DNA of 64,000 nucleotides from NCBI RefSeq assembly GCF_000293885.2, contig NZ_CP010945.1, positions 3,988,001 to 4,052,000 of the forward strand, in the 5' to 3' direction. This document shows positions 9,310 through 35,950 of this stretch, in pieces; the stretch's first letter is position 1; each line of letters begins with the position of its first letter. The notes beneath the pieces are model-generated. The model ran no database searches, was not told the origin of the DNA, and saw only the letters and a list, made by a program, of their open reading frames with translations. The stretch comes from Pseudomonas fluorescens NCIMB 11764. GTDB lineage: Bacteria > Pseudomonadota > Gammaproteobacteria > Pseudomonadales > Pseudomonadaceae. The position numbers and the translations under genes were made by a program.

Positions 9310-10188
9310 ATGTTCGAGAATTTCACCAAAACCATCACCAAAACCAGCGGCGCTGACATCGTTACTGTCGTGGGTGGCGAAGGCCCGCCCTTGCTGCTGA
9401 TGCACGGCAACCCGTTCAATCACCTGTCCTGGCACAAGATCGCACCACGCCTGGCCAGGGACTTCACCGTGGTCTGCACCGACTTGCGCGGCTATGGCGA
9501 CAGCTCCAAACCGGAGGGCGGCGGTGATCATTCGGCGTATTCGTTCCGTGCCATGGCCCAGGATCAGGTCGAAGTCATGCAGTCGCTGGGCTTCGAGCAG
9601 TTCTATGCCGCCGGCCATGACCGAGGTGCGCGGGTGCTGCATCGCATGTGCCTGGACCACGGCGACAAGGTGTTGAAAGCGGGTTTCGTCGACATGCTGC
9701 CGCAGCATTACTTGCTCAACAACGTCACGCGTCAGTGGGGCAAATTCTCCTGGCACTGGTTCTTCATGACCCAGGACGCGCCGACGCCGGAGCGCATGAT
9801 GAACGCCGATCCGGAGTTCTTCATCCTGCGCAAACTGTCGAAGACCGACCAGGGCACCAGCTTCTTCGGGCCCGAAGCACTGGCCGATTACATCCGCTGC
9901 ATCAAGAACCCGGCCACCACCCACGCCATGTGCGAAGACTATCGCGCCACGTTCGGCATCGACCTGGACATGGACACCGCTGACTTCGACGCCGGCCGGC
10001 GTATCGATAACCCGGCGCTGATCCTCTGGGGCGAGAAGGGCGGTGTTGGCCGCAACCACAACGCCGCGCAAATCTGGAGCCGCTACGCCACCAACATTGT
10101 GCAGACCGCCACGGTGCCTTCGGGGCACTACTTGCAGGAAGAGTGCCCGGACGAGACCTACGAGGTGCTCAGCGGCTTCTTCAAGTAA
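9310..10188 (+). CDS. Alpha/beta hydrolase, haloacetate (fluoroacetate) dehalogenase-like
   Basis: At 292 residues this is an alpha/beta-hydrolase whose nucleophile elbow is GHDRGAR, with Asp104 in place of Ser, as in haloacid-type dehalogenases. Residues defining fluoroacetate dehalogenases can be placed: D104 nucleophile, R105 and R108 for the carboxylate, D128 acid (FVDMLP), H149-W150 (HWFF) and Y211 (CEDYRA) for the halide, H273 base (SGHYLQ). The oxyanion segment is MHGNPFN. Such enzymes hydrolyse haloacetate to glycolate; some homologues act on other esters. It lies 66 nt after the pdxA2-like gene and before an ACS-family transporter, suggesting one operon. Confidence 0.75.
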   Translation: MFENFTKTITKTSGADIVTVVGGEGPPLLLMHGNPFNHLSWHKIAPRLARDFTVVCTDLRGYGDSSKPEGGGDHSAYSFRAMAQDQVEVMQSLGFEQFYAAGHDRGARVLHRMCLDHGDKVLKAGFVDMLPQHYLLNNVTRQWGKFSWHWFFMTQDAPTPERMMNADPEFFILRKLSKTDQGTSFFGPEALADYIRCIKNPATTHAMCEDYRATFGIDLDMDTADFDAGRRIDNPALILWGEKGGVGRNHNAAQIWSRYATNIVQTATVPSGHYLQEECPDETYEVLSGFFK

Positions 10189-10252
10189 CGCCATGACAGG
10201 CGGTCCGGGATGACCGCCTGCCCACTACAACTATAAAAAAAGGTGGAAAAAA

Positions 10253-11536
10253 ATGATTCCGACTACGCTTGCGCAAAAACGCAGGGCAACGCTGACCTTC
10301 GTGTTGCTGTGCGTCATGGCCTTCATCATGTACGTGGACCGCACCAACCTCGCGGTCGCCGCACCGACGATCAGTAAAGAGCTGGGTTTCAGCAACACTA
10401 ATCTGGGCATGATGTTTTCCGCGTTTGCCATCGCCTACAGCTGCTTCATGATTCCCGGCGGCTGGTTCAGCGACCGGATCGGTTCGCGCAAGGCGATGTT
10501 GCTCTACGGCATTATCTGGTCGGTCGCGACCATTGCCACGGGCCTGGTCAGCGGTCTGGTGGTGCTGGTGATTGCCCGTTTCGTGGTCGGCATCGGCGAA
10601 GCGCCGATCTACCCGACCGCGGCGCGCATGATCGCTCGCGCCATCCCCGTCACTCAGCGCGGCACGGCCCAGGGCATGATGCATGCGTCCGGACGCCTGG
10701 CCAACGCACTGGCACCGTTGATCGTGACGTTCATGATCATCCAGTTTTCCTGGCGCATGACCTTTGTCATCCTCGGCGTGGTGACACTGATCTACATGTT
10801 CGTGATGTATTTCAGCCTCAGCGAGTCGAAGAAACTGGTCGAGGCCACGGCCGCTGCACCGGTGGCGCCTGTGGTCGCCGCTCCGGTCAACTGGCCGCAG
10901 ATGCTGCGCAGGGTCTGGCCGGCGGCCGCCACCTGTTTTTGCCACGGCTGGGTGTTGTGGTTCTTCCTCAACTGGATTCCGTCGTTCTTCACCCAGCGCT
11001 ACGGCATGGACCTGACCCACACCGCCATGTTTTCGACCTTCGTGCTGCTCGGCGGAACGGTCGGCACCGCGGTCGGCGGCATGCTCTCGGACTGGCGTTT
11101 CAAGGTCACCGGCAACCGCCTGCGCTCACGTCGCGACCTGATCATCTTCGGCTTCCTGGCCTCGATCATTGGCCTGATTCCGCTGATGTTCACCCACGAC
11201 CTGATGATCTGCGCCTGCGGCCTGAGCTTCTCGTTCTTCTGCTCGGAACTGGCCGACTCGCCGCTCTGGGTGATTGGCACCGAGGTGTCCCACGCCCACT
11301 CCGCGACTTCCAGCGCCTGCACCTTCACCGGCATGGCCTTGGCCGGTGCGGTGTCGCCGGTGGTGATCGGCTGGTTGCTGGACATCACCGGCAATAACTG
11401 GTCAGTGGCATTCGGCGCGTCGATCGCCGTGGTGCTGATGGGGCCGATATTGGCCATGTTCATCAAGCTGGACGACGAGCCGGCGCCGGAGCCCGTTTCA
11501 TTGGTGCATTCGAGCGCGCCTGCGACCCAGAGCTGA
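10253..11536 (+). CDS. MFS transporter, anion:cation symporter (ACS) family
   Basis: A 427-residue inner-membrane protein with about 12 hydrophobic segments. The first loop has YVDRTNLAVAAPTISKEL and GGWFSDRIGSRKAM, the ACS (phthalate/glucarate/hexuronate permease) signatures, and the second half begins after a Pro/Ala-rich loop around residue 200. Relatives import organic anions with protons. It follows the dehalogenase-like gene by 64 nt, with an A-rich leader and GGTGGAA just before the ATG, so it probably imports the operon's substrate. The exact solute cannot be read from the sequence. Confidence 0.85.
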   Translation: MIPTTLAQKRRATLTFVLLCVMAFIMYVDRTNLAVAAPTISKELGFSNTNLGMMFSAFAIAYSCFMIPGGWFSDRIGSRKAMLLYGIIWSVATIATGLVSGLVVLVIARFVVGIGEAPIYPTAARMIARAIPVTQRGTAQGMMHASGRLANALAPLIVTFMIIQFSWRMTFVILGVVTLIYMFVMYFSLSESKKLVEATAAAPVAPVVAAPVNWPQMLRRVWPAAATCFCHGWVLWFFLNWIPSFFTQRYGMDLTHTAMFSTFVLLGGTVGTAVGGMLSDWRFKVTGNRLRSRRDLIIFGFLASIIGLIPLMFTHDLMICACGLSFSFFCSELADSPLWVIGTEVSHAHSATSSACTFTGMALAGAVSPVVIGWLLDITGNNWSVAFGASIAVVLMGPILAMFIKLDDEPAPEPVSLVHSSAPATQS

Positions 11537-11672
11537 AGTCCGGGCGTTTTCGGATGGTTATCTTTAATGGAGATAACCCTGATCGAATTAATTCGCTTCT
11601 TAAGATATCTGCGCCTGCGTAGGGTTTACCTGTCTTGAGAGCGACTTTCCATTCGATCAAAGCGGAACGCCA

Positions 11673-12953
11673 TTGCACGTGAATTATTCCGATCGTAACC
11701 AGAAGTACTGGCGCCGAAACCTGGCAGTGTGTGTTTTCGGCTCGTTCACTACGCTGGTCAGCCTGAGCATGTTGTTGCCCTTCTTGCCGCTGTACGTCCA
11801 GCAACTGGGCGTTACGGCGCAGGCTGACGTGGTGCAATGGTCGGCGGTGGCCTTCGGCGCGACGTTCCTGGGGACCGCTGTGACGGCCCCGATCTGGGGG
11901 CGCCTGGCTGACCGCTATGGCCGCAAACCCATGCTGGTCAGAGCGGCCATCGGCATGGCCGTTGTGATGTCGCTGATCGGGCTGGCGCACAACGTGACCG
12001 AACTGGTCGCACTGCGCCTCTTCGCTGGCCTCATCGGTGGCTACGCGTCCGCCTCGATTGTCATGATCGGCTCCCAGGTTCCACGGGAACGGGCCGGTTG
12101 GGCCTTGGGGGTTTTGTCCACGGGCGCCTTGTCCGGCAACCTGATCGGGCCGTTGGTGGGCGGTTTCCTGCCGGAGTTCGTGGGTATCCGCGGCACGTTT
12201 TTCGTCGGTGGCGGGATGATCGCGGTCGCTGCCTTTGCGACCATCCTGCTGGTGCGCGAGGACTTCGATCGTGTGGCGGATGCGAGACAGCGGGGCAAGA
12301 AAAACCAGCCTGAGGAGACGGGTTCGAAATGGCCGGTCATCGGCGCACTGCTCGTGACCGCAATGATGGTGCTCCTGGCCAATATGTCGATCGAGCCGAT
12401 CATCACCGTCTACATCGGCGACCTCGGCGTGCCGTTGGATCGTCAGGCCCGTGTCGCGGGTTTTGTCATGGCCGCTTCAGCGCTGGGCAGTATTTTGACC
12501 GCCGCCAAGCTGGGGGCGCTGGCAGACCGGGTCGGCAGCTGGAACGTGATCATCGGCTGTCTGCTGTTGACGGGGATGGTCATGGTGCCCCAGGCCTTCG
12601 TCACGCAATGGTGGCAACTGGCGGTTTTGCGCGGTGTCATGGGGATGACCCTTGCAGGCCTGCTGCCGGCGATTGCCAAGCTGATCCGGCATTCGGTCGA
12701 AGAGCACAACACCGGGAAAATCCTCGGTTATCTGCAATCGGCGCAGTTTTCCGGGCAGGTGATCGGGCCACTGATCGGTGGGCAGATTGGCGCTCACTTC
12801 GGCTTGCATCATGTGTTCCTGGTGACGGCCGCGCTGTTACTGATATGTGCCGGAATGAACGGCTGGATCAGCTATCGCTACATGGGCTCGAGCGCCGGCA
12901 CCCCGTCCAGTCGGGCGCTGTCCAGAAAGGTCGATAGCGCGCTGGAAAAATAG
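11673..12953 (+). CDS. MFS transporter, drug-efflux (DHA1) type
   Basis: A 426-residue, 12-segment MFS protein with the GRLADRYGRKPML motif (about 70-82) of proton-driven exporters and a central basic loop (RQRGKKNQ, about 205-212). It resembles DHA1 multidrug efflux pumps more than importers. The start is uncertain: TTG 11673 lies 6 nt after CGGA, while GTG 11679 is the alternative two codons later. The 3' end overlaps the convergent LysR gene by 76 nt. A pump beside a catabolic operon could export a toxic intermediate, but this is inference. Confidence 0.8.
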   Translation: MHVNYSDRNQKYWRRNLAVCVFGSFTTLVSLSMLLPFLPLYVQQLGVTAQADVVQWSAVAFGATFLGTAVTAPIWGRLADRYGRKPMLVRAAIGMAVVMSLIGLAHNVTELVALRLFAGLIGGYASASIVMIGSQVPRERAGWALGVLSTGALSGNLIGPLVGGFLPEFVGIRGTFFVGGGMIAVAAFATILLVREDFDRVADARQRGKKNQPEETGSKWPVIGALLVTAMMVLLANMSIEPIITVYIGDLGVPLDRQARVAGFVMAASALGSILTAAKLGALADRVGSWNVIIGCLLLTGMVMVPQAFVTQWWQLAVLRGVMGMTLAGLLPAIAKLIRHSVEEHNTGKILGYLQSAQFSGQVIGPLIGGQIGAHFGLHHVFLVTAALLLICAGMNGWISYRYMGSSAGTPSSRALSRKVDSALEK

Positions 12954-13774
12954 CCATCGATGCGCCGGACAAATACCGTCTCTACGTCGGCGATATCCGG
13001 TGTCAGCTTATGCACGTTGACCAACCCGTCGCGCAACGCACTGGCGACAACGCCTCTGGGTAACAATGTGACGCCGACGCCGGCGGAAACGCAGGCAACG
13101 ATGGCTTCGATCGATCCGAACTCAAGTGGCTCGGGCGCCGGGACGCCCAACCGGGTCAGCAGGGAATCCAGGCGTTGGCGATAGGAACAACCGATTCGAA
13201 AGACGACGGTCTTCAGGTTGTCGACGGAGGCGACTTCGTCCAGGCGATTGATCGCGGTAGACGTTACTAAAACCAGCTCTTCGCGGAAGGCTGGTTCACT
13301 CAGTAACTCCGGGTGATTGACCGGTCCCACCACAAACGCGCCTTCGAGCTTACAGTCGATGACCCCCTGGATCAGGCTGCACGTGGTGCCGGTGCGAATC
13401 AGCGGGCGAACGTCAGGGTAGGCCTTGGCGAACCTGGCGATCAGTCGTGGCAGACGCAGCGCCAGCGTCGTCTCCAGCGTACCGATCTCGAATACGCCCC
13501 TTGGGTGTCCATCGTCGCGCGCGGCGCTGGAGGCATCGAAGAGCAGCTTCGACAGGCGCGCGGCGAAGGGCAGGATCCGCCGCCCGGCCGGCGTGATCTG
13601 GACACCTCGGGCGCTGCGTTGAAACAGCGCCACCCCCAGCTCCTCTTCCAGCGCTCGAATCCTTGCCGACACGTTCGACTGCACGGTATTCAGTTCGCTG
13701 GCCGCCTTGTTCATGCTGCCGTGCCGCGCGACCGCGTCAACCACCTTGAGGTCCGTCATATCCATCAAATTCAC
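12878..13774 (-). CDS. LysR-family transcriptional regulator
   Basis: A 298-residue LysR regulator: N-terminal winged helix (DLKVVDAVARHGSMNKAASE, then VQSNVSARIRALEEELG, about residues 8-46) and a two-domain periplasmic-binding-like effector region. Its ligand domain is close in style to the second LysR of the window (17847-18734), with the shared TGTT motif near 130 and SAGVGVTLLPRG versus AAGMGVTLLPKA. It is divergent from DUF485-actP, and a 35-bp element (13877-13911) lies between them, so it most likely controls that operon and itself. Its 3' end overlaps the MFS gene in opposite orientation. Confidence 0.92.
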   Translation of the reverse strand: MNLMDMTDLKVVDAVARHGSMNKAASELNTVQSNVSARIRALEEELGVALFQRSARGVQITPAGRRILPFAARLSKLLFDASSAARDDGHPRGVFEIGTLETTLALRLPRLIARFAKAYPDVRPLIRTGTTCSLIQGVIDCKLEGAFVVGPVNHPELLSEPAFREELVLVTSTAINRLDEVASVDNLKTVVFRIGCSYRQRLDSLLTRLGVPAPEPLEFGSIEAIVACVSAGVGVTLLPRGVVASALRDGLVNVHKLTPDIADVETVFVRRIDGYFSSALSTFLDSARLDGVPALEPM

Positions 13775-13876
13775 CTATCTCTAAAAGCAATAACTGACTC
13801 GAATAATACACGTTGAGGAGATTGGGTTTCGCAAATCGCAATGGCAAGAATAGGCAATGGCTGGTTCATCAAAACA

Positions 13877-13911
13877 GATCACAAGCATCATTAATGATCG
13901 TTTTACATGAT
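13877..13911. promoter_or_regulatory. Candidate LysR operator, copy 1
   Basis: This 35-bp element begins GATCAC, contains the palindromic core ATCATTAATGAT and ends TTTTACATGAT. It lies between the divergent LysR gene and DUF485-actP, 115 nt before the DUF485 start. A second copy (19581-19615) before the mmsA-like gene is identical at 31 of 35 positions. The position and imperfect dyad are as expected for a LysR binding site. No binding has been shown. Confidence 0.65.
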
Positions 13912-14025
13912 TCGGTGCCAGGCATAGGTTGAGGGTGCAAATACCCCGCAGCCAGTGGCAAATCGAGTCTTCGAATTGAGGCTGTGGAACAACAATAAAC
14001 GCTTCCACTGCTACACGGAGTCAAC

Positions 14026-14340
14026 GTGAACCATGCAATCGAATCAGCCAGAATTCGCAACCATCCCCGGTATCAGGAATTGGTCTCAAGGCAGCGAAGG
14101 TTCGTCGCTTGTCTTGTCGCCGCCACCCTCGTTCCTTACTTCACGTTCATCCTCATCGCCGCGTTCGCGCCGCACCTGCTGGCGCAGAAGCTTTCTGCGA
14201 CCAGCGTCATCAACATAGGCTGGCCGCTTGGCGTTGCCTTCATCGTCGGGGCCTGGTTGTTTACGGGCCTGTACATCCTTCGGGCCAATGGTGAGTTCGA
14301 CGCCCTCACCACAGAAATTCGCGAAGGAGCCATCGTATGA
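14026..14340 (+). CDS. DUF485 membrane protein, partner of ActP-type permease
   Basis: A 104-residue protein with two hydrophobic segments (about 28-50 and 62-84) flanked by [16 protein letters not shown], the DUF485/YjcH pattern. YjcH-type proteins are encoded just ahead of acetate permease ActP and are thought to assist it in the inner membrane. The start is GTG 14026 with GGAG 5 nt upstream. The stop overlaps the next start (ATGA), indicating translational coupling to the permease gene. Confidence 0.88.
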
Positions 14341-16010
14341 AAACCCTTCTTCGCTACCTCATTGTTCCTGCTCTCCTGAGCGCGGCAGCCACGTGCGCCT
14401 CGGCGGCCGACACCTTGCAGGCGGTTGAAAAACAACCCCTCAACATCACCGCCATTGCGATGTTCCTCGTCTTCGTGCTGACGACGTTGGGCATTACTTA
14501 CTGGGCGGCCAACAAGACCAAGTCGATGGACGATTTCTACAACGCCGGCGGCGGCATCACAGGCTTCCAGAACGGCCTGGCGCTGGCCGGGGACTACATG
14601 TCGGCGGCTGCGTTACTGGGTGTCACCAGCATGATTTTCTTCAACGGCTTCGATGGGGTGCTGTACTCGATCAGCTTCTTCGTTGCCTGGCCATTGCTGT
14701 TGTTCCTGTTTGCCGAGCGCATCCGCAATCTGGGGCGTATTACGCTCTCGGACATTGCGTCTTTTCGACTCGATCAAAACCGGATTCGCACCCTGACAGC
14801 CTTCGGTTCGTTGACCGTGGTGTGCTTCTATCTGGTGGTGCAGATGGTGGGCGCAGGGCAGTTGATCCAGCTGCTGTTCGGTCTGCCCTACAACTATGCG
14901 GTGATCGCGGTCGGGTTGTTGATGGCGGTCTACGTCACGTTTGGCGGGATGGTCGCCACCACGTGGGTGCAGATCATCAAGGCCGGGCTGTTGCTGGTGG
15001 GCGGAACCTTGCTGGCGGTATTGGCGCTGAGCAAGTTCGGGTTTTCCTTCGAACAGTTGTTCACTCAGGCGGTGGCCGCTCATCACGATGGTGAACTGAT
15101 CCTGCTGCCCAGCAAACTGGTGGCCGATCCGTTGGCGCTGATCTCGCTGTCCCTGGGCCTGGTGTTCGGCACGGCCGGATTGCCGCATATCCTCATGCGT
15201 TTTTTCACCGTGCCGGATGCACGGCAAGCGCGTAAATCGGTGTTCATCGCGACGGGTTTCATCGGCTTCTTCTACCTGATCGTTGCGGTGCTCGGGCTGG
15301 CGGCGATCGTGATCGTCGGGCGCGATCCGGCGTTCTACGAGTCCGGCATTCTGGGTGGCAAGCTCATCGGCGGTGGCAACATGCCGGTGATGCACCTGGC
15401 CAAAGCGGTGGGGGGCGACCTGTTACTGGGCTTCATCTCCGCGGTTGCGTTTGCCACGATCCTGGCGGTGGTCTCCGGACTGACGATGGCGGGGACCTCG
15501 GCGATTTCCCATGACCTCTACGTCATGGTCTTCAAGAAAGGCCGGGCCGAAGCGAAAGACGAGCGCCGTGTTTCGCGGATCGCTTCGGTCGGCATCGGTA
15601 TCGTTGCGGTGGTGCTGGGCATCCTGTTCAAGGACCAGAACATCGCCTTCCTGGTGGCGCTGACGTTTGGCGTAGCGGCCTCGGTCAACTTCCCGATTCT
15701 CGCGCTTTCGATGTACTGGAAAGGGCTGACGACGCGAGGGGCATTGATCGGTGGCATCGCCGGACTGGTGAGCTCGGTCAGCCTGGTGATTCTCTCGCCG
15801 GCGGTGTGGGTCAAGGTGCTGGGCAACCCCGAGGCTATTTTCCCCTTCGACTACCCGGCGATCATTTCGATGAACGTGGCGTTCTTCTTTACCTGGCTTG
15901 GCTCGGTCACCGATCGCAGCAGCGAGGCCGTGCTGGAGCGGGAGCGTTTCGATGACCAACTCATCCGTGCCCAGACCGGCCTCGGGGCCTCGCAGGCTGT
16001 CAATCATTAA
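14337..16010 (+). CDS. actP: ActP-like sodium:solute symporter for short monocarboxylates
   Basis: A 557-residue SSS-family (SLC5-type) permease with a signal-like start and about 13 membrane segments. ActP hallmarks include [27 protein letters not shown] (read in parts, about 62-88), the [12 protein letters not shown] block and [16 protein letters not shown]. ActP imports acetate and related short monocarboxylates. In this context, with nitronate monooxygenases and malonate-semialdehyde enzymes downstream, the substrate may be 3-nitropropionate or another C2-C3 acid; that is inference. It is coupled to DUF485 upstream and followed 57 nt later by a cytochrome b561 gene on the same strand. Confidence 0.88.
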
Positions 16011-16067
16011 GACACAGCCCGTCATTTTCCTATCCTGATTTGCGCACTCTGCCAAAAGGAGTCTGCC

Positions 16068-16622
16068 ATGCAACTTCGAGACAATGGCTTAAGGTTTTCA
16101 CCCATCACCGTGGCGCTGCACTGGGTCGTGGCGCTGTCGCTGCTGGCGATCGTCGGCTTGCAGCTGATGATCGACCAGGCCTCCAGCGACGCCGCGCGGA
16201 TGCCGCTTGCCCACATGCAAAACCTGGTGGGGCTGATTCTGTTTCTGGTGTCGGTCTATCGATTCTGGGCCAGGATCACCTCTTACCATCCGCTGCCCGT
16301 GGGCACGCCGAATCCCATCGAGGTCATCATCAGCCGTTCGGTTGCGGTGGCGCTCGCCCTGGCGATGGTGCTGCTGCCGATAGCAGTCTGGGCTTCCCGT
16401 TCGGCGGGCGGCGAGGCCGTGGTTTTGCCTGGAGGATTCTCCATTCCAACGCTCTTGCCCACTCACGCCGGACTCAAACATGTCGTTGATGTGCTGTTCG
16501 ATATTGGCGCTTCGGCGTTTCTCGCGGGGCTGGCCTTGCATGTCTTCGGTGCGGTCAAGAATCACTTTCTCCTGAAGAACAACACGCTCAAGCGGATGCT
16601 TGGAAAACATGTGGAGCTGTGA
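16068..16622 (+). CDS. Cytochrome b561 family membrane protein
   Basis: A 184-residue protein with four hydrophobic segments and His residues at the usual haem-ligand positions (ALHWVVAL near 17, PLAHMQNLVGL near 48, THAGLKHVVD near 131-135, LALHVFGAVKNHF near 155-165). This fits the bacterial di-haem cytochrome b561 (CybB-type) group, which moves electrons with quinone in the inner membrane. AAAGGAG precedes ATG 16068. It ends 3 nt before the nitronate monooxygenase gene, so the two are probably co-translated. A role in electron supply or removal for that pathway is plausible but unproven. Confidence 0.85.
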   Translation: MQLRDNGLRFSPITVALHWVVALSLLAIVGLQLMIDQASSDAARMPLAHMQNLVGLILFLVSVYRFWARITSYHPLPVGTPNPIEVIISRSVAVALALAMVLLPIAVWASRSAGGEAVVLPGGFSIPTLLPTHAGLKHVVDVLFDIGASAFLAGLALHVFGAVKNHFLLKNNTLKRMLGKHVEL

Positions 16623-16625
16623 GTC

Positions 16626-17618
16626 ATGAACGAAGCCAGATCCGATTTTGCAGGAAACGCCATCACTCGACTGTGCGGCGTGAAGTACCCGATCTTTCTC
16701 GGTGGCATGGCAGCCATTTCCGGCCCGCAGCTCGTGGGGGCGGTGGCCAATGCCGGGGGGATGGGGGTGCTGGGCGGTTTGCGTCTGCCGCCGCTGACCT
16801 TGCGCCGGTGGATACAGGAAACCCGTGCACTGACCGATAAGCCTTTTGGTGTGAACCTTGTTCCACAGTTCGGCGGCCCGGACGTTTTCGAAGCGCAGTT
16901 TCAGGTGGTGCTGGAAGAAAAACCGCGACTGCTTTCACTGTTTTACGCCGAGGCCTATTCCGCCGACATGATTCCCCGAGCGAAGGACGCGGGGCTGACG
17001 GTCATGGTGCAGGTGGGGTCGGTTGAACTTGCCAGGATTGCCATTGCACAAGGCGCCGACATTCTCGTGGCGCAAGGCAGTGAAAGTGGCGGTCATTTGA
17101 ACCGGGGCACCATCGGCATCATGCCGCTGTTGTCCTCAATCCTGGGTGTTTCGGAGGGGCGACCGGTCCTGGCCGCGGGCGGTATCGTGGCGGGCGATGA
17201 TGTCCGGGCGCTGATGTCGCTCGGTGCGTCAGGTGTGGTGGTGGGCACGGCGTTTATCGCCACCGACGAGTCGAATGCGCACCCGCTCTACAAACAAAAG
17301 ATCGTGGAAGCGACGACGGATGACACCGAGTACCGGACCGGTTATTCGTTCGGCTGGACCTACGGTACGCCTCACCGGGTGATCCCCAATCGGGACAAGT
17401 GGAACCTGCTGCGCTTCATCGGCGGCGGCGCCCGGGCGATCGACAAACCGCGGATGGCGAAAAAGCTGTCGCTGTACGCGGGGCAGGGGGTGGGCAAGAT
17501 TCACAGTGTCGTCCCGGCGGCCGAGCGCGTGGTTGAGCTGGCCTCCGGGCTGCCGATGACAACAAGCCGGTTGCCAATGGAGGAGGGTGAAGCCGTCAAC
17601 TTTGCCGCTAAAGCCTAA
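16626..17618 (+). CDS. Nitronate monooxygenase (2-nitropropane dioxygenase family), first paralogue
   Basis: A 330-residue FMN-binding TIM-barrel enzyme. Conserved blocks are YPIFLGGMAAISGPQLVGAV (about 19-38), NAGGMGVLGG, KPFGVNLVPQ, the flavin-phosphate loop LVAQGSESGGH (about 145-155, with catalytic-type His) and VLAAGGIVAGDDV...GASGVVVGTAF. Enzymes of this family oxidise alkyl nitronates such as propionate-3-nitronate, giving semialdehyde plus nitrite or nitrate, although some members have other flavin roles. It differs from the second copy at 21816 in length and motif detail (SESGGHLNRG rather than YEAGGHRG). Its start is 3 nt after the cytochrome b561 stop. Confidence 0.85.
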   Translation: MNEARSDFAGNAITRLCGVKYPIFLGGMAAISGPQLVGAVANAGGMGVLGGLRLPPLTLRRWIQETRALTDKPFGVNLVPQFGGPDVFEAQFQVVLEEKPRLLSLFYAEAYSADMIPRAKDAGLTVMVQVGSVELARIAIAQGADILVAQGSESGGHLNRGTIGIMPLLSSILGVSEGRPVLAAGGIVAGDDVRALMSLGASGVVVGTAFIATDESNAHPLYKQKIVEATTDDTEYRTGYSFGWTYGTPHRVIPNRDKWNLLRFIGGGARAIDKPRMAKKLSLYAGQGVGKIHSVVPAAERVVELASGLPMTTSRLPMEEGEAVNFAAKA

Positions 17619-17650
17619 TACTGATCACTTAAGTGCGGGCTCCACACAAT

Positions 17651-17786
17651 TGTGGCGAGGGGATTTATCCCCGTTCGGCTGCGAAGCAGTCGCCAATCCG
17701 GACAATTCAATCTAATTGGCCGGACGCTGGGGCCGCTTCGCGACCCAACGGGGCGGTGCGACGTTTCGCTAAATCCCTTCACCACA
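17651..17786. repeat. REPIN-like inverted repeat pair
   Basis: Two imperfect, inverted REP-type arms flank a short spacer: tgtggcgaggggatttatcc at the left and its counterpart ending ggatttagcg-like, aaatcccttcaccaca at the right. Inner arms (ctgcgaagcagtc and gccgcttcgcgac) also pair imperfectly. Such palindromic doublets in intergenic gaps are common in fluorescent pseudomonads and are moved by RAYT transposases, none of which is encoded here. Confidence 0.7.
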
Positions 17787-17846
17787 GATTTCTTGCCTGC
17801 CTGAAGATTTTCTTAAGTGAACAACATTCTGGTCATTGCCGGCTAT

Positions 17847-18734
17847 TCACGCCACCGCCGGCCGGGCGATCTGGTTTTGTGCCAGGCCGATGAACGCGCT
17901 CATGGCCGAGGTGATCATCGTGTCGTTTCGGCGGATGAAGACGGTCGAGACGTTGGCGAATTCCGGCGGGAGCGTGTGGCAACGAATGGCATGCCGTACG
18001 CTGCAATTTTCCGCGATGGCCTTGGGCAGCAAGGTCACGCCCATGCCGGCGGCGACGCACGACAGGATACCGTCGAGGGTGCCCAGTTCCATGATCTGGT
18101 TGGGCACCAGCCCGACCTGATAAAACCAGTTTTCCAGGGTGGAGCGGTAGAAGCAGCCGGTGCGGAAGACCAGTACGGTTTGCTGCGGGATTTTCTCGAT
18201 CAGCGCCGGCAGTGACGGGAACTGATTGCTGCTGACCAGCACCAGTTCTTCCTGGAAAACCTCTTCCTGGGTCAGCGCCGAATTCTGGTGGAATCCGCCG
18301 ACGAATGCGCCGTCGAGTCGATGCGCTTCAATCGCCTTGATCAGTTCGGAAGTGGTCCCGGTCAACAGCGACAACTGAACCTCGGGGTATTTCTCGCGGT
18401 ACTTCGTCAGCACTTGCGGCAAGCGGATGGCGGCGGTGGTTTCCATTGAGCCCAACCGCAGCAGGCCCGCCGGAATGCCGGTATCCATCAGGGCGTTGCG
18501 ACTCTCTTCTGTCAGTTGCAGGATGCGCCGCGCATACCCGAGGAAGGTCTGGCCCGCCGAGGTGAGCACCACCCCGGACTTTTTGCGGATGAACAGTTCC
18601 CGGTTCAGTTCGGCTTCCAGCTCCTTCACCCGCATGGTGACATTGGACTGCACCGTATTCACATTGACGGCGGCCGCAGTGAAGCTGCCAAGCTCGGCAA
18701 CCGCGCAGAAAATCTTCAGTTGGCGCATTTCCAT
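17847..18734 (-). CDS. LysR-family transcriptional regulator (NmoR-like by context)
   Basis: A 295-residue LysR protein, starting MEMRQLKIFCAVAELGSFTA with the helix-turn-helix at about 15-45 and the effector domain from about 90. ATG 18734 is preceded by AGGTGG at 7 nt, so it is preferred to the frame start at 18752. It lies between two nitronate monooxygenase genes and is divergent from the MOSC gene. In P. aeruginosa a LysR (NmoR) next to nitronate monooxygenase responds to 3-nitropropionate; a similar role is inferred here. The element TCATCATTTTAC upstream (18778-18789) also occurs in operator copy 2. Confidence 0.92.
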   Translation of the reverse strand: MEMRQLKIFCAVAELGSFTAAAVNVNTVQSNVTMRVKELEAELNRELFIRKKSGVVLTSAGQTFLGYARRILQLTEESRNALMDTGIPAGLLRLGSMETTAAIRLPQVLTKYREKYPEVQLSLLTGTTSELIKAIEAHRLDGAFVGGFHQNSALTQEEVFQEELVLVSSNQFPSLPALIEKIPQQTVLVFRTGCFYRSTLENWFYQVGLVPNQIMELGTLDGILSCVAAGMGVTLLPKAIAENCSVRHAIRCHTLPPEFANVSTVFIRRNDTMITSAMSAFIGLAQNQIARPAVA

Positions 18735-18777
18735 GATCTTGCCACCTATCATAAAAAGTGATGAATAGCATCACGAG

Positions 18778-18789
18778 TCATCATTTTAC
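18778..18789. promoter_or_regulatory. Partial operator-like element between LysR and MOSC genes
   Basis: The 12-mer TCATCATTTTAC, followed by GATCAT, matches the right half of operator copy 2 (19599-19610) exactly. It lies 44 nt upstream of the LysR start and 58 nt before the MOSC gene, a normal place for LysR autoregulation. The left half of the 35-bp element is not conserved, so this is a weak call. Confidence 0.4.
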
Positions 18790-18846
18790 GATCATTGTCG
18801 ACGGTTAGTAAAGTCAACAAAACAGACGAATGAGCGCTGCCGGACG

Positions 18847-19521
18847 ATGAACCTGACTTCAAGAATTGACCATGTCTTTGCCGGCGGCATGGGCGTCCTG
18901 ATGCCTGAAGGGCAACGTTCAGGCATCTTCAAACAGCGACGTGCCGGCCCCGCTCGCGTGGAGGTCCAGGGGATTGTCGGAGATGAGCACGCCGATCGCC
19001 GGGTTCACGGCGGTCCGGAAAAAGCAGTTCATCACTATGCGGCAGAAAACTATCAGCGCCTGGCGCAGGCCTTTGCACAGTGCGCCCCGGAACTGATCCC
19101 GGGCAGCCTCGGGGAAAACCTCTCAGCGCTCGGGCTCTCTGAGCGAAACGTGCACATCGGCGACGTGTTCCAGATGGGCAGTGCGGTGTTGCAAGTCTCT
19201 CAGCCACGCAGCCCGTGCTGGAAAATCAACCATCGTTTTGACGCCGAACGCATGTCGATGCATGTCGCCAAAGAGCGCATCACCGGTTGGTATTACCGGG
19301 TGCTTCAACCGGGATTTATCGAGGCCGGGGACACGATTGAACTGCTGGAACGGCAGACGCAGCGCTTTTCCATCGATGAGTTCTGGCAGGTGCAGCTGTC
19401 GCACCGGCCAGTGATCGACGACCTGCTCGCGCTGGCCGCCATCCGTGGCCTGGCCGAGGACTGGAAGCGACGCCTGTCGGAGCGGGCGAAATGGCTGCAA
19501 AAAGCTGTTCAAGACAAATAA
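18847..19521 (+). CDS. YiiM-like MOSC domain protein
   Basis: A 224-residue cytosolic MOSC protein. The molybdenum-cofactor-binding core includes GDEHADRRVHGGPEKAVHHY (about 45-64), GSLGENLSALGL (about 87-98) and the invariant-type cysteine in QPRSPCWKIN (about 118-127), followed by the YiiM C-terminal helical region. YiiM and YcbX detoxify N-hydroxylated bases and hydroxylamines by reduction. In a locus with nitronate enzymes it might reduce an N-oxygenated by-product; this is inference. ATG 18847 lacks a strong ribosome site. The gene is divergent from the LysR gene at 18734. Confidence 0.82.
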   Translation: MNLTSRIDHVFAGGMGVLMPEGQRSGIFKQRRAGPARVEVQGIVGDEHADRRVHGGPEKAVHHYAAENYQRLAQAFAQCAPELIPGSLGENLSALGLSERNVHIGDVFQMGSAVLQVSQPRSPCWKINHRFDAERMSMHVAKERITGWYYRVLQPGFIEAGDTIELLERQTQRFSIDEFWQVQLSHRPVIDDLLALAAIRGLAEDWKRRLSERAKWLQKAVQDK

Positions 19522-19580
19522 CTGTCCGCCCGTAGCGAGGGCGCTTGCTCCATCGCCATCAAAACAGCTTCACCATTTGT

Positions 19581-19615
19581 GATCACCAGAATCATTAATC
19601 ATCATTTTACATGAT
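19581..19615. promoter_or_regulatory. Candidate LysR operator, copy 2
   Basis: The element begins GATCACCAGAATCATTAATC and ends ATTTTACATGAT, and matches 31 of 35 positions of copy 1 (13877-13911). It lies 106 nt upstream of the semialdehyde dehydrogenase start, and the phrase catcaaaacag occurs just before both copies. The conservation, much higher than in neighbouring intergenic DNA, indicates one regulator acting on both operons. Confidence 0.65.
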
Positions 19616-19720
19616 CCAAAGGCTGGCCTACTTTGACCCTGAGGCGCGCCGACAGGACCGCCTGGCAATCCCGAACAACAAAAAGAGATGGTCCTTATCC
19701 ACCACCAGGGGACACCCGCC

Positions 19721-21238
19721 ATGAGCACCCAGCCAGCAGACATCGCACATTACATTCACGGCCGCGTGACGCACGGTTCTTCGGGCCGCACGCAGAACGT
19801 CACCAACCCCGCCCTCGGCTCCGTCATCGGCAAAGTTGCGCTCGCCAATGCCGCTGAAGTCGACGCAGCGGTGAAGTCGGCGGCACAGGCTTTTCCGGCC
19901 TGGTCGGCGCTGCCGCCACTGCGTCGGGCACGCATCATGTTCAAGTTCCTGGCGCTGCTCAACGAGCACCGCGACACCCTGGCGCGCATGATCACCGCCG
20001 AGCATGGCAAGGTCTTCACCGATGCCCAGGGTGAAGTGACACGCGGCATCGAGGTCGTCGAGTTCGCCTGCGGCATCCCGCAATTGCTCAAGGGTGACTA
20101 CACCGAGCAGGTCTCGACCAACATCGACAACTGGACCATGCGCCAGCCGCTGGGCGTGGTGGCCGGCATCACCCCGTTCAACTTCCCGGTAATGGTGCCG
20201 ATGTGGATGTTCCCGGTGGCCATCGCCTGCGGCAACACCTTCGTGCTCAAGCCAAGCCCGATCGACCCGTCGCCCTCGTTGCTGATCGCCGAACTGTTCA
20301 AGGAAGCCGGGCTTCCCGACGGCGTGTTTAACGTCGTGCAGGGCGACAAGGAAGCGGTGGATGCGCTGATCGATCACCCGGACGTCAAAGCCGTGAGTTT
20401 TGTCGGCTCAACGCCGATTGCCAATTACATCTATGAAACGGGCGCCCGCCACGGCAAGCGTGTGCAGGCGCTCGGGGGCGCGAAGAACCACATGGTAGTG
20501 ATGCCGGACGCCGACATCGATCAAGTGGTGGACGCGCTGATCGGCGCGGCATTCGGCTCTGCCGGCGAGCGTTGCATGGCGATCTCGGTGGCGGTTTTTG
20601 TCGGGGATGTCGCGGACAAGGTGATGCCCAAACTGGTGGAACGCACCCGCGCGCTCAAAGTCCTCGAGGGCATGAACCTGGCCGCGGAGATGGGCCCGAT
20701 CGTGTCGCAAGTCGCGTTGCAGCGCATCACCGGGTACATCGAACAAGGCATTGAAGAAGGCGCAGAACTGCTGGTCGACGGCCGTGGTTTTGACGGTGCT
20801 CAGGCTGGCGCGAACTGTGCCGAAGGGTTCTGGCTCGGTGGCACGGTGTTCGACCATGTCACGCCCGAGATGAAAATCTACAAAGAGGAGATCTTCGGCC
20901 CGGTGCTCGCGTGCATGCGCGTCAAGGATTTTGCCGAGGCGGTCAATCTGGTCAACGCCCACGAGTTCGGCAATGGCACCGCCTGCTACACCCGTGACGG
21001 CCACATCGCCCGTGAATTCGCCAGCCGCATTCAGGTCGGCATGGTTGGCATCAACGTGCCGATTCCAGTGCCGATGGCGTGGCATGGCTTCGGCGGCTGG
21101 AAGCGTTCGCTGTTCGGTGACACACACGCCTATGGCGAAGAGGGCGTGCGCTTCTACACCAAGCAGAAGTCGATCATGCAACGCTGGCCGAACAGCATCG
21201 CCAAGGGCGCTGAGTTCGCCATGCCGACGTCCAAGTAA
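19721..21238 (+). CDS. mmsA: CoA-acylating (methyl)malonate-semialdehyde dehydrogenase
   Basis: A 505-residue aldehyde dehydrogenase of the MmsA type: NAD-fold region with [20 protein letters not shown] (about 155-174), KPSP, the [14 protein letters not shown] block (about 250-263) and catalytic cysteine in [11 protein letters not shown] (near 284). MmsA converts methylmalonate or malonate semialdehyde with CoA and NAD to propionyl- or acetyl-CoA plus CO2. ATG 19721 follows CAGGGGA, so it was chosen over the frame start at 19688. Between a MOSC gene and a malonate-semialdehyde decarboxylase gene, its likely substrate is malonate semialdehyde. No valine-pathway mmsB is adjacent. Confidence 0.92.
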
Positions 21239-21312
21239 TACGGTTTCTGCTCCACAGGTTTGGGGTTGGGTGACGTGTTGGCACGGGCTGGCACGGCATC
21301 TTTTTTCCCAGG

Positions 21313-21341
21313 GGGGGCGAATTTCTCGCCCCCGGTTTTTT
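21313..21341 (+). terminator. Intrinsic terminator between mmsA and the decarboxylase gene
   Basis: An 8-bp GC stem (gggggcga at 21313-21320, tcgccccc at 21326-21333) with a 5-nt loop is followed by ggtttttt. It lies only 18 nt ahead of the next start codon, so it may cut expression of the downstream genes relative to mmsA. Confidence 0.75.
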
Positions 21342-21358
21342 CGCACAGGTGAATCGCT

Positions 21359-21748
21359 ATGCCGTTGCTCAAGTTCGACATCCTCCAGGGGCGCAATGAC
21401 GAGCAGCTCAAGACGCTTCTGGACGCGACCCATCAGGCGATGGTCGAGGCCTTTGAAGTGCCCGCCAGTGATCGCTATCAATGCGTCACCCAACACCGTC
21501 CCGGTGAGTTGGTGCTGCACGACACGGGATTGGGCTACACGCGCTCGGCCAATGTGGTGTTGCTGACGGTGATTTCGCGACCGCGCTCACAAGCGCAGAA
21601 GGCCGCGTTTTACCGCTTGCTGGCCGAGAGACTACGTGCCGATTGCGGCTTGTCGCCCGATGACCTGATTGTTTCGCTGGTGGAAAATGCCGATTCGGAC
21701 TGGTCCTTCGGCCGGGGACGGGCGCAATTCCTGACCGGCGAACTGTAG
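21359..21748 (+). CDS. Malonate-semialdehyde decarboxylase (tautomerase superfamily)
   Basis: A 129-residue protein, the same size as characterised malonate-semialdehyde decarboxylase (MSAD). After Met removal it has the catalytic Pro1 (PLLKFD), and the MSAD residues fall at the right numbers: Asp37, Arg73, Arg75, Trp114, Phe116, Phe123 and Leu128. MSAD converts malonate semialdehyde to acetaldehyde and CO2 in the cytosol. AGGTGA lies 7 nt before ATG 21359. It sits between mmsA and a class I nitronate monooxygenase gene, which fits a shared malonate-semialdehyde intermediate. A different tautomerase activity cannot be excluded, but residue agreement is complete. Confidence 0.85.
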
Positions 21749-21815
21749 CGCCGGGCAGCGCCGAGTGCTCAGGCACCATCGGTTTTACTCACACTCATCA
21801 CGTACAGGTGCTGTC

Positions 21816-22865
21816 ATGTCCAGTCCACTGCTGTCCCTTTTGAACATTCAACTGCCGATCCTTCAATCCCCCATGGTGGGCGTTTCCACACCCAGGCTCG
21901 CGGCAGCGGTGTCGAGTGCCGGCGGTCTGGGCTCCATCGGCATCGGGGCGAGCAGCGTCGAGCAGGCGCGGGCCATGATTCGAGAGACGGCGGCACTGAC
22001 GGATAAACCCTTCAATGTGAACCTGTTCTGCCACCAGCCTGCCGTGCATGACAGCGCCCGAGAGGCTCAATGGCTGAGTTTCCTGACACCGTTTTTTGCC
22101 GAGTTCGGCGCCGCTGCGCCGTCGTCGCTGCGCGAGATCTACACCTCGTTCGTCGAAGACCCGGACATGCTGCAGATGCTGCTGGAAGAAAAACCGGCGG
22201 TGGTCAGCTTCCATTTTGGATTGCCCCCACAATCCGCCGTCGATGCGCTCAAGGACGCCGGCATCGTGCTCTTGTGCTCCGTAACGAGCCTGGCCGAAGC
22301 GCAGTTGGCGGAGCACGCCGGCGTGCATGCGCTGGTGGCTCAAGGTTACGAAGCCGGGGGCCATCGCGGTGTATTCGACCCGCAGCAGGACACGGAAATG
22401 GGCACGTTTGCGCTGGTGCGTGTGTTGACCCGCGCTTGCAGACTGCCGGTGATCGCGGCGGGTGGCATCATGGACGGCGCAGGCATCAAGGCGGTCATGC
22501 AACTGGGCGCCAGTGCAGCGCAGCTGGGCACGGCATTTATCCTCTGTCCTGAATCCTCCGCCAACAGCGCTTACCGTGAGGCCTTGAAGGGGCCGCGCGC
22601 ACACCAAACCAAAGTCACCAGTGTGATTTCCGGCCGTCCTGCCCGTGGCATGGTCAATCGCAACTTCACCCTCCTTGCGACGGCTGCCACGGCACTGCCC
22701 GACTATCCGCTGACCTATGACGCCAACAAGGCGCTCAACGCTGCCGCGACCGCGCAGGCAAACACTGATTTTGCCGTGCAGTGGGCCGGGCAGGGCGCAC
22801 CGCTGGCGCGTGAATTGCCGGCCGCAGCGCTGGTGAATCTGCTGGCGGCGGAAATGAAAGCCTGA
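21816..22865 (+). CDS. Class I nitronate monooxygenase, second paralogue
   Basis: A 349-residue FMN barrel with class I signatures: [20 protein letters not shown] (about 12-31), [24 protein letters not shown] (about 67-78), [12 protein letters not shown] (about 170-181, active-site His) and [20 protein letters not shown]. Class I enzymes, such as P. aeruginosa PA4202, oxidise propionate-3-nitronate to malonate semialdehyde with release of nitrogen oxides. ATG 21816 is preceded by ACAGGTG; the frame is open to 21765. It begins 68 nt after the MSAD gene, so product and consumer are co-located. Confidence 0.88.

Positions 22866-33245: not shown

Positions 33246-35950
<2,705 letters not shown>

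Follow-up and report, generated by a model that had tools for sequence, protein, structure and literature searches.

A predicted LysR-controlled locus for 3-nitropropionate uptake and catabolism in Pseudomonas fluorescens NCIMB 11764

Organisation of the locus

The window analysed is a 64,000-nucleotide stretch of the P. fluorescens NCIMB 11764 genome. An earlier note had listed a permease, DUF485, cytochrome b561, a pair of NMO-family proteins, a LysR, a MOSC protein, MmsA and a malonate semialdehyde decarboxylase, and an open reading frame and Pfam check found open frames for all of them in their places. The left half-operon begins with the DUF485 symporter partner (14026..14340, forward strand; PF04341), which overlaps by four bases with an ActP-type sodium:monocarboxylate symporter of the SSF family (14337..16010, forward; PF00474). 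A cytochrome b561-type membrane protein (16068..16622, forward; PF01292) follows, separated by three bases from NMO1 (16626..17618, forward; PF03060). The candidate regulator LysR2 (17847..18752, reverse; assigned by Pfam) is divergent from the right half, comprising a YiiM-like MOSC-domain protein (18847..19521, forward), the CoA-acylating (methyl)malonate semialdehyde dehydrogenase MmsA (19688..21238, forward), the malonate semialdehyde decarboxylase MSAD (21359..21748, forward) and NMO2 (21810..22865, forward). The start of NMO2 is most likely the ATG at 21810 rather than the GTG at 21765, as PnoA begins there. To this list we add a second LysR-type regulator, LysR1 (12878..13774, reverse; Pfam LysR_substrate and HTH_1), lying divergently in front of the left half.

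The gene order is found again in Pseudomonas relatives, and both halves have a common operator core that occurs twice genome-wide, so the locus is more than a chance arrangement. Neighbouring genes in the relatives were predicted with a home-made gene caller and named only after a family scan.

NMO2, a probable PnoA-type nitronate monooxygenase

NMO2 is 86% identical across 349 residues to P0168 (UniProt NMO_PSESP), which we take to be PnoA of the 3-nitropropionate-grown Pseudomonas strain JS189, and matches PDB 4Q4K with an E value of 5.9e-132. All six residues of what we presume to be the class I active-site set (Tyr109, His133, His183, Tyr299, Tyr303 and Lys307, in a numbering that agrees with the NMO2–4Q4K alignment) are retained. 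By these sequence measures, NMO2 is a class I nitronate monooxygenase and an orthologue of PnoA. Two related loci encode NMO2 proteins 93% and 90% identical to NMO_PSESP, with MOSC, MSAD and NMO2 consecutive in both. One genome (G044) retains the left operon, LysR2, MOSC and mmsA but lacks orthologues of NMO2 and MSAD (best matches 41% and 43%), so the unit can exist without PnoA. Around NMO2 relatives of 59–69% identity, 11 Pseudomonas loci contain no MmsA and no MSAD of the locus kind, with a single 42% MSAD paralogue among them.

Proposed uptake and exits for malonate semialdehyde

The symporter passes the subfamily model NF006903 (846.9 bits, cut-off 750) and scores 748.7 bits against the acetate permease ActP equivalog TIGR02711, under its curated 1099.25; together with DUF485, it is the proposed 3-nitropropionate importer. 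MmsA, the predicted exit to acetyl-CoA and CO2, passes TIGR01722 (693.6 bits, curated cut-off 448.5) and is one of three genes of this type in the genome. MSAD, the predicted exit to acetaldehyde and CO2, is identical to PDB 2AAG at 92 of 128 residues and retains all eight positions checked, including Pro1 and the residues Asp37, Arg73 and Arg75, which we take to be catalytic. A role for Pro1 is described in PMC5818174.

Across 15 Pseudomonas genomes, mmsA is present at the locus in 11 and MSAD in 13; mmsA is missing from four, MSAD from two and both from none, such that at least one exit is always there. This alternating loss is weaker proof than it seems that either exit suffices, because further MmsA genes lie elsewhere, as in G002, where mmsA is absent at the locus and a 79% copy sits on a different contig. 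The locus had been called complete, which is too strong, since the nitrite reductase and flavohaemoprotein genes lie not within it but elsewhere in the genome. Elsewhere in Pseudomonas, two genomes have an NMO2 relative and MSAD preceded by a flavohaemoprotein-like gene, an arrangement that would fit the release of NO.

NMO1, cytochrome b561 and the MOSC protein

The two NMO-family proteins are merely distant relatives, and PnoA is only 31% identical to NMO1. NMO1 has one of the six class I residues, the histidine of the GGH motif, and the same holds in eight aligned relatives. By sequence, NMO1 is therefore a flavoprotein of the NMO/FabK superfamily outside the class I enzymes, and the description of the locus as having two distinct nitronate monooxygenases is supported for NMO2 and not for NMO1. 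The adjacency of NMO1 and cytochrome b561 is retained in Alcaligenes, Paraburkholderia and Tistrella.

It is expected that 3-nitropropionate exists in its neutral nitro form at neutral pH, and we know of no class I NMO that accepts this form as a substrate. We tentatively propose that NMO1 and cytochrome b561 are a new enzyme pair acting on neutral 3-nitropropionate, by deprotonation or oxidation, with NMO1 and PnoA dividing the tautomers between them, although this is rather doubtful. The GGH histidine would be a plausible base; NMO1 has none of the five remaining residues of the class I set.

The cytochrome scores 28.5 bits against NF008566 (curated cut-off 170) and aligns weakly with the E. 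coli enzyme (E value 0.006), with no histidine, by eye, at the positions of His87 and His158. In E. coli cytochrome b561, a membrane superoxide oxidase, these are the quinone-site histidines, and superoxide is collected on the periplasmic side (PMC11869295). A role in scavenging superoxide from NMO by-products was dropped as a main claim, owing to this periplasmic side of action and the unmatched histidines.

The YiiM-like protein contains the MOSC domain itself (PF03473) and its closest solved structures are YiiM, while its score against the 6-hydroxyaminopurine reductase YiiM model NF008577 (154.2 bits) is below the curated 294. The step against N-oxygenated by-products proposed in the earlier note is a possible role.

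A predicted shared operator and its candidate regulator

The palindrome AAANNGAT-N17-ATCNNTTT stands before each half-operon. Predicted operator A (13869..13908, forward; core 13872-13904) is at the left-operon promoter, and predicted operator B (18752..18791, forward; core 18755-18787) is in the divergent LysR2/MOSC promoter. A third predicted site, operator C (19573..19612, forward), lies between MOSC and mmsA with three mismatches to the core. We found the core exactly twice in the 6,998,154-base genome, both times at the locus. It likewise occurs exactly twice in G002, G088, G128 and G131 and once in G044, always at the locus. Among 22 genomes of the same genus without NMO1, four have one core site each and 18 have none; a control pattern, read backwards, matched in two of 30 genomes, and 100 first-order Markov-shuffled windows gave no core match.

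The core was derived from alignments of sites A and B, and the match of these sites in the aligned loci is therefore by construction; independent evidence comes from the count over the whole genome, from site C and from the sites in Alcaligenes and Paraburkholderia. A scoring matrix trained solely on 11 copies of site A recovered site C, at 27.2 to 48.9 bits, in all 15 Pseudomonas genomes that have the locus. It also recovered site B in all 13 loci holding the LysR2/MOSC gap (11.9 to 30.3 bits), although the score is low in several. Alcaligenes has two sites (43.0 and 28.8 bits), and each of five Paraburkholderia megaplasmid loci has one before DUF485-ActP (28.6 to 31.3 bits) and none before NMO2. 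The top score in 38 control loci was 7.4 bits, and one Pseudomonas locus (L008) has a match of 14.5 bits outside the three sites. No such operator was found at the genes of the NMO–MSAD units of five further loci (L015, L017, L021, L070 and L071).

Both LysR proteins are candidates for binding these sites. A LysR1 orthologue stands in front of DUF485 in several Pseudomonas relatives and is absent from L008, L063 (G128) and L069 (G044), while site A persists. LysR2 occurs in the window, and 12 further Pseudomonas genomes with loci extending to its position have it too; orthologues of 66–79% identity adjoin NMO1 in Alcaligenes, P. phymatum and Tistrella. LysR2 is most likely the regulator that binds the three operators, and by its predicted sites the locus behaves as a single LysR regulon.

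Co-occurrence across genomes

NMO1 of at least 79% identity occurs in six of 149 genomes, five of which are the only five with NMO2 of at least 84% (Fisher 1e-8, a value that ignores kinship). In Paraburkholderia, NMO2-MOSC and DUF485-ActP-cytochrome b561-NMO1 lie inside 10 kb in all five loci opened, and both MSAD and MmsA are missing from these five stretches. In Tistrella and three distant genomes, relatives of NMO1, cytochrome b561 and LysR2 are grouped with neither NMO2 nor MSAD alongside.

Conservation of MmsA/MSAD without the NMOs in most relatives had been named as evidence against the pathway, and the picture for MSAD is mixed. Within Pseudomonas, MSAD of at least 80% identity is next to NMO2 in all 13 genomes where it was encountered. 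Outside the genus, most of the MSAD genes examined have no NMO neighbour: for relatives of 70–79%, an NMO relative is in the fetched flank at four of 11 loci; 13 loci with MSAD of 43–60%, drawn from a phylum-wide sample, have none nearby; and the Rahnella and MPC6 plasmid genes have none inside the fetched 7 kb on either side. Because of these loci, MSAD was rejected as a general marker for NMO.

Proposed pathway and alternatives

We consider it likely that these genes form a regulon under LysR control that serves to catabolise and detoxify 3-nitropropionate and propionate-3-nitronate. The DUF485-ActP symporter would import the 3-nitropropionate monocarboxylate, which would ionise to propionate-3-nitronate; NMO2 would convert this with O2 to malonate semialdehyde and nitrite or nitrate. 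Malonate semialdehyde would then pass to acetyl-CoA through MmsA or to acetaldehyde through MSAD, one exit being enough, and nitrite and NO would be dealt with by enzymes encoded outside the locus. One regulator, most likely LysR2, would act on the three operators and switch both half-operons together, with NMO1-cytochrome b561 and MOSC as auxiliary steps. Gene families, PnoA orthology, conserved residues, shared operators and gene-loss patterns are the sequence-based part of this reading; we infer the substrate, transport specificity, induction and the identity of the LysR that binds. The earlier proposal of a single pathway that combines uptake with two malonate semialdehyde exits is supported by the PnoA orthologue, the MSAD and MmsA comparisons, the shared operators and the alternative loss of mmsA and MSAD.

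The locus could instead be two unrelated neighbours, a PnoA-type unit (MOSC-MmsA-MSAD-NMO2) and an ActP-cytochrome b561-NMO1 unit for another carboxylate. The Tistrella-type groupings and G044, with NMO1 and no NMO2, fit such a division. However, the halves share a core of equal spacing at two sites genome-wide, Paraburkholderia holds both parts close together, NMO1 and NMO2 co-occur among the 149 genomes, and G002 retains both halves with their operators even though they are on separate contigs amid other genes, which makes independent systems improbable.

Mainly detoxifying use, on nitronates from plants, fungi or insects or on another nitro acid or alcohol yielding malonate semialdehyde, rather than growth on 3-nitropropionate, would suit the 11 Pseudomonas loci and the Paraburkholderia stretches that lack both exits. 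We regard it as unlikely, as the symporter, an MmsA in addition to two others in the genome, and MSAD point to carbon use, and the orthologous enzyme comes from JS189, which Nishino's 2010 work is said to have isolated by growth on 3-nitropropionate. MSAD was first described in the setting of 3-chloroacrylate and 1,3-dichloropropene degradation, and its match to the crystallised decarboxylase would agree with a pathway of that type in which the NMOs are accidental. This is very improbable: the genome has just one further Tautomerase_2 match, ~1.1 Mb away; Pfam showed no other tautomerase or dehalogenase family among the ten genes of the locus; and MSAD of this kind adjoins NMO2 in all 13 Pseudomonas genomes that have it.

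Significance and comparison with known systems

3-Nitropropionate is a widespread respiratory poison from plants and fungi, and the locus very probably lets this soil-type Pseudomonas import and consume it. Alcaligenes and Paraburkholderia also carry portions of this gene set under the matching predicted operator, and the source fields of the Paraburkholderia megaplasmids suggest that some bacteria of bugs and Mimosa carry a related regulon. If the 3-nitropropionate reading is right, the combination of uptake genes, both exits and a defined operator is a genetic marker that predicts 3-nitropropionate removers better than a lone NMO gene, and it names auxiliary parts with testable chemistry in NMO1-cytochrome b561 and MOSC.

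The locus had also been called an undescribed unit. At the level of titles and abstract openings, no paper on this gene set was found; the pathway itself is already known, and the novelty lies in the operator and in the pairing of cytochrome b561 with NMO1. For Pseudomonas sp. Nvir (PNMR), the first enzyme proposed comes from another flavoprotein family, in a pathway including a malonate-semialdehyde dehydrogenase and a flavohaemoprotein; pnoA is present there yet not expressed, which we counted against the regulon reading (PMC9552603). The window's unit resembles the JS189 pathway in NMO2, and the malonate semialdehyde product suits both exits. MSAD resembles the 2AAG enzyme, which presumably receives malonate semialdehyde from chloroacrylate, whereas the proposed source here is a nitronate. 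With P. aeruginosa NmoR/NmoA (PA4203/PA4202; PDB 4Q4K), in which we take NmoA to be controlled by the LysR-type NmoR, the locus shares a class I NMO and a LysR-type regulator; it differs in also having uptake genes, two exits for malonate semialdehyde, MOSC and another flavoprotein.

Organisation of the locus and its key enzyme

The predicted 3-nitropropionate (NPA) / propionate-3-nitronate (P3N) locus (12878–22865) lies in a 64-kb window on a Pseudomonas chromosome of 6,998,154 bases and is made up of two divergent halves. The left half pairs LysR1 (12878–13774, minus strand) with DUF485-ActP-cytochrome b561-NMO1, where the DUF485 and ActP frames share 4 bases and NMO1 (16626–17618), an NMO/FabK-superfamily flavoprotein, follows cytochrome b561 after 3 bases. 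The right half pairs LysR2 (17847–18752, minus strand) with MOSC-MmsA-MSAD-NMO2, with intergenic gaps of 166, 120 and 61 bases; MSAD is malonate semialdehyde decarboxylase, and NMO2 occupies 21810–22865. From comparison of genomes, the locus is real, conserved and predicted to be jointly regulated, a candidate 3-nitropropionate / nitronate system built around a known enzyme. Upstream (9310–12953) are an alpha/beta hydrolase and two MFS transporters assigned by Pfam, the second of which keeps its place next to LysR1 or DUF485 in a number of related Pseudomonas. A 751-residue frame at 33246–35501 (minus strand) resembles catalase-peroxidase, as judged by eye.

The key enzyme of the locus is identified by homology as NMO2, a putative PnoA-type nitronate monooxygenase. 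NMO2 is 86% identical to the UniProt entry NMO_PSESP (nitronate monooxygenase, Pseudomonas sp.), which we take to be PnoA of strain JS189, a strain that reportedly grows on 3-nitropropionate. The NMO2 proteins of two relatives (L009 and L067) are 93% and 90% identical to the same entry, and in both MOSC, MSAD and NMO2 are consecutive. The earlier note had claimed two nitronate monooxygenases, and the sequence supports this for NMO2, which has all six of what we take to be the class I active-site residues, but not for NMO1, which has one of the six. Among solved structures, those of a putative nitroalkane dioxygenase and of FabK reductases come closest to NMO1; its predicted regulation and its linkage place it in the same candidate pathway. 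The MOSC protein resembles YiiM, yet scores under the curated cut-off. A flavohaemoprotein-like gene (60% to the protein of L070, another Pseudomonas) and NirB are found elsewhere in the genome, outside the locus.

Proposed alternative exits for malonate semialdehyde

The proposal of two exits for malonate semialdehyde is supported. Of 128 positions, 92 are the same in MSAD and in the solved enzyme, among them Pro1, Asp37, Arg73 and Arg75, and MSAD is 97% identical to its counterpart in P. migulae (L001). MmsA scores over the TIGR01722 cut-off; two further MmsA-like genes in the genome are 59% and 49% identical to it. Fifteen distinct Pseudomonas genomes carry the locus (the window genome, L001–L011, G002, G128 and G044, with L004 equal to G088 and L011 to G131), the left half being covered in all except L006, L009 and L010, where contigs end. 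At the locus, mmsA is present in 11/15 and MSAD in 13/15, and none lacks both. The gene mmsA is missing from L005, L007, L009 and G002, a pattern to be read with caution as G002 has a 79% mmsA copy on another contig; MSAD is missing from G128, and MSAD with NMO2 from G044. Remnants of mmsA precede MSAD in L005 and L007, so the loss is secondary in these two. Between MOSC and the remnant in L005 (L005:6000–8994) is a lower-GC stretch with four minus-strand frames, which by eye resemble, among others, genes for HAD hydrolase, deaminase/reductase and alcohol dehydrogenase.

A predicted operator

Promoter alignment across relatives revealed a palindrome, AAANNGAT-N17-ATCNNTTT, at both divergent promoters: site A before DUF485 (13869–13908) and site B at LysR2/MOSC (18752–18791), where the core matches by construction, having been derived from these alignments; genome-wide counts and matrix matches are independent. 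We searched 30 genomes for the exact core. It occurs twice in the whole window genome, both times at the locus, exactly twice in each of G002, G088, G128 and G131, always at the locus, and once in G044, also at the locus. Of the genomes searched, 22 are of the same genus and have no NMO1; the core is absent from 18 of these and occurs once in each of the other four. G115 has one core, away from its NMO-MSAD unit, and G094 has no exact match in its genome.

A weight matrix trained on 11 site A sequences locates a third operator, site C (19573–19612 in the window), which lies between MOSC and the next gene, mmsA or MSAD, in 15/15 genomes at 27.2 to 48.9 bits. The top score of the matrix in 38 control loci was 7.4. 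Site B was found in all 13 loci containing that gap at 11.9 to 30.3 bits, the lowest of which mean little alone, since one match in L008 outside sites A, B and C scores 14.5. Outside the genus, Alcaligenes faecalis has two sites between cytochrome b561 and MSAD (43.0 and 28.8 bits), and Paraburkholderia has one before DUF485 in 5/5 opened loci (28.6 to 31.3 bits). Weaker sites precede cytochrome b561 in Tistrella (17.8) and NMO1 in the distant genome L097 (17.5); none was found in L098 or L099. No such site lies at the NMO or MSAD genes of L015, L017, L021, L070 and L071 (best 13.6 anywhere), and these units are therefore probably under other control.

Of the two LysR proteins, LysR2 more probably controls the predicted regulon, because its orthologue is kept in the window and 12 other Pseudomonas genomes whose loci extend there, and in Alcaligenes (79%), P. 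phymatum (68%) and Tistrella (66%) it is a neighbour of NMO1, whereas LysR1 is absent from L008, G128 and G044, though site A stays.

Distribution

In a sample of 149 Pseudomonas genomes, NMO1 (at least 79%) occurs in six, NMO2 (at least 84%) in five, all within those six, and MSAD (at least 80%) in four, all within the five. In G002, the two halves lie on separate contigs, each flanked by other genes. G115 and G094 carry a flavohaemoprotein-like gene followed by an NMO2 relative (58%) and MSAD; a 63% relative of this first gene in L017 has globin, FAD and NAD domains. The order flavohaemoprotein-like, class I NMO, MSAD, without the locus operator, is seen in two Pseudomonas genomes other than that of the window (L070:5415–8246 and L071:4432–8380).

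NMO1 relatives of 74.5–79.3% were found in nine plasmid records (eight Paraburkholderia and one Tistrella), of which five and one, respectively, were examined. All five Paraburkholderia loci, on megaplasmids (L122, L123, L124, L126 and L127), hold NMO2 (61–63%)-MOSC and DUF485-ActP-cytochrome b561-NMO1 within 10 kb, and neither MSAD nor MmsA lies in the ∼21 kb retrieved; two of the five records come from the bug Physopelta gutta and one from Mimosa. In L122, the two groups are separated by genes for a small tautomerase, an SDR and a luciferase-like oxidoreductase. The Tistrella locus comprises cytochrome b561-NMO1-LysR2 only. In three distant genomes (L097, L098 and L099), relatives of NMO1 (57–58%), LysR2 and cytochrome b561 are clustered, with neither MSAD nor NMO2 nearby.

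Whether MmsA and MSAD occur without the NMOs in relatives, the check that the earlier note attached to its pathway, came out differently by group: in the sample of 149 genomes every Pseudomonas MSAD of at least 80% accompanies NMO2 (4/4), but among 11 non-Pseudomonas MSAD loci of 70–79% (L012–L021, up to 10 kb each side, and L120, 7 kb), only L012, L015, L017 and L021 have an NMO relative, that of L017 being 32% identical and more than 8 kb from MSAD. The Cupriavidus locus (L021:9027–12320) has another NMO-family gene, which shares 13 bases with MSAD; a 66-aa frame and then an ActP relative come next, and a relative of LysR1 (47%) stands upstream. No NMO relative was found at 13 MSAD loci of 43–60% (a phylum-wide sample of 398 genomes, ∼6 kb each side), nor at three Bacillus loci (L022, L023, L025) and one plasmid locus (L121). 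Among 27 loci with paralogues of lower identity (33–46%), 1 has an NMO relative, ∼5 kb away. This distribution speaks against a simple rule that MSAD would imply NMO.

Comparison with described systems

The view that the unit had not been described holds in part. In the literature collection searched, no paper names malonate semialdehyde decarboxylase together with nitronate monooxygenase. PMC9552603 calls JS189 NPA-degrading, describes its pnoA as encoding P3N monooxygenase, and states that in NPA-degrading Pseudomonas the genes belonged to an operon close to a transcriptional regulator; Nishino 2010 or Vercammen 2015 may therefore have covered part of the unit. What goes beyond the known system is the predicted operator, the putative alternative exits and the candidate cytochrome b561-NMO1 pair.
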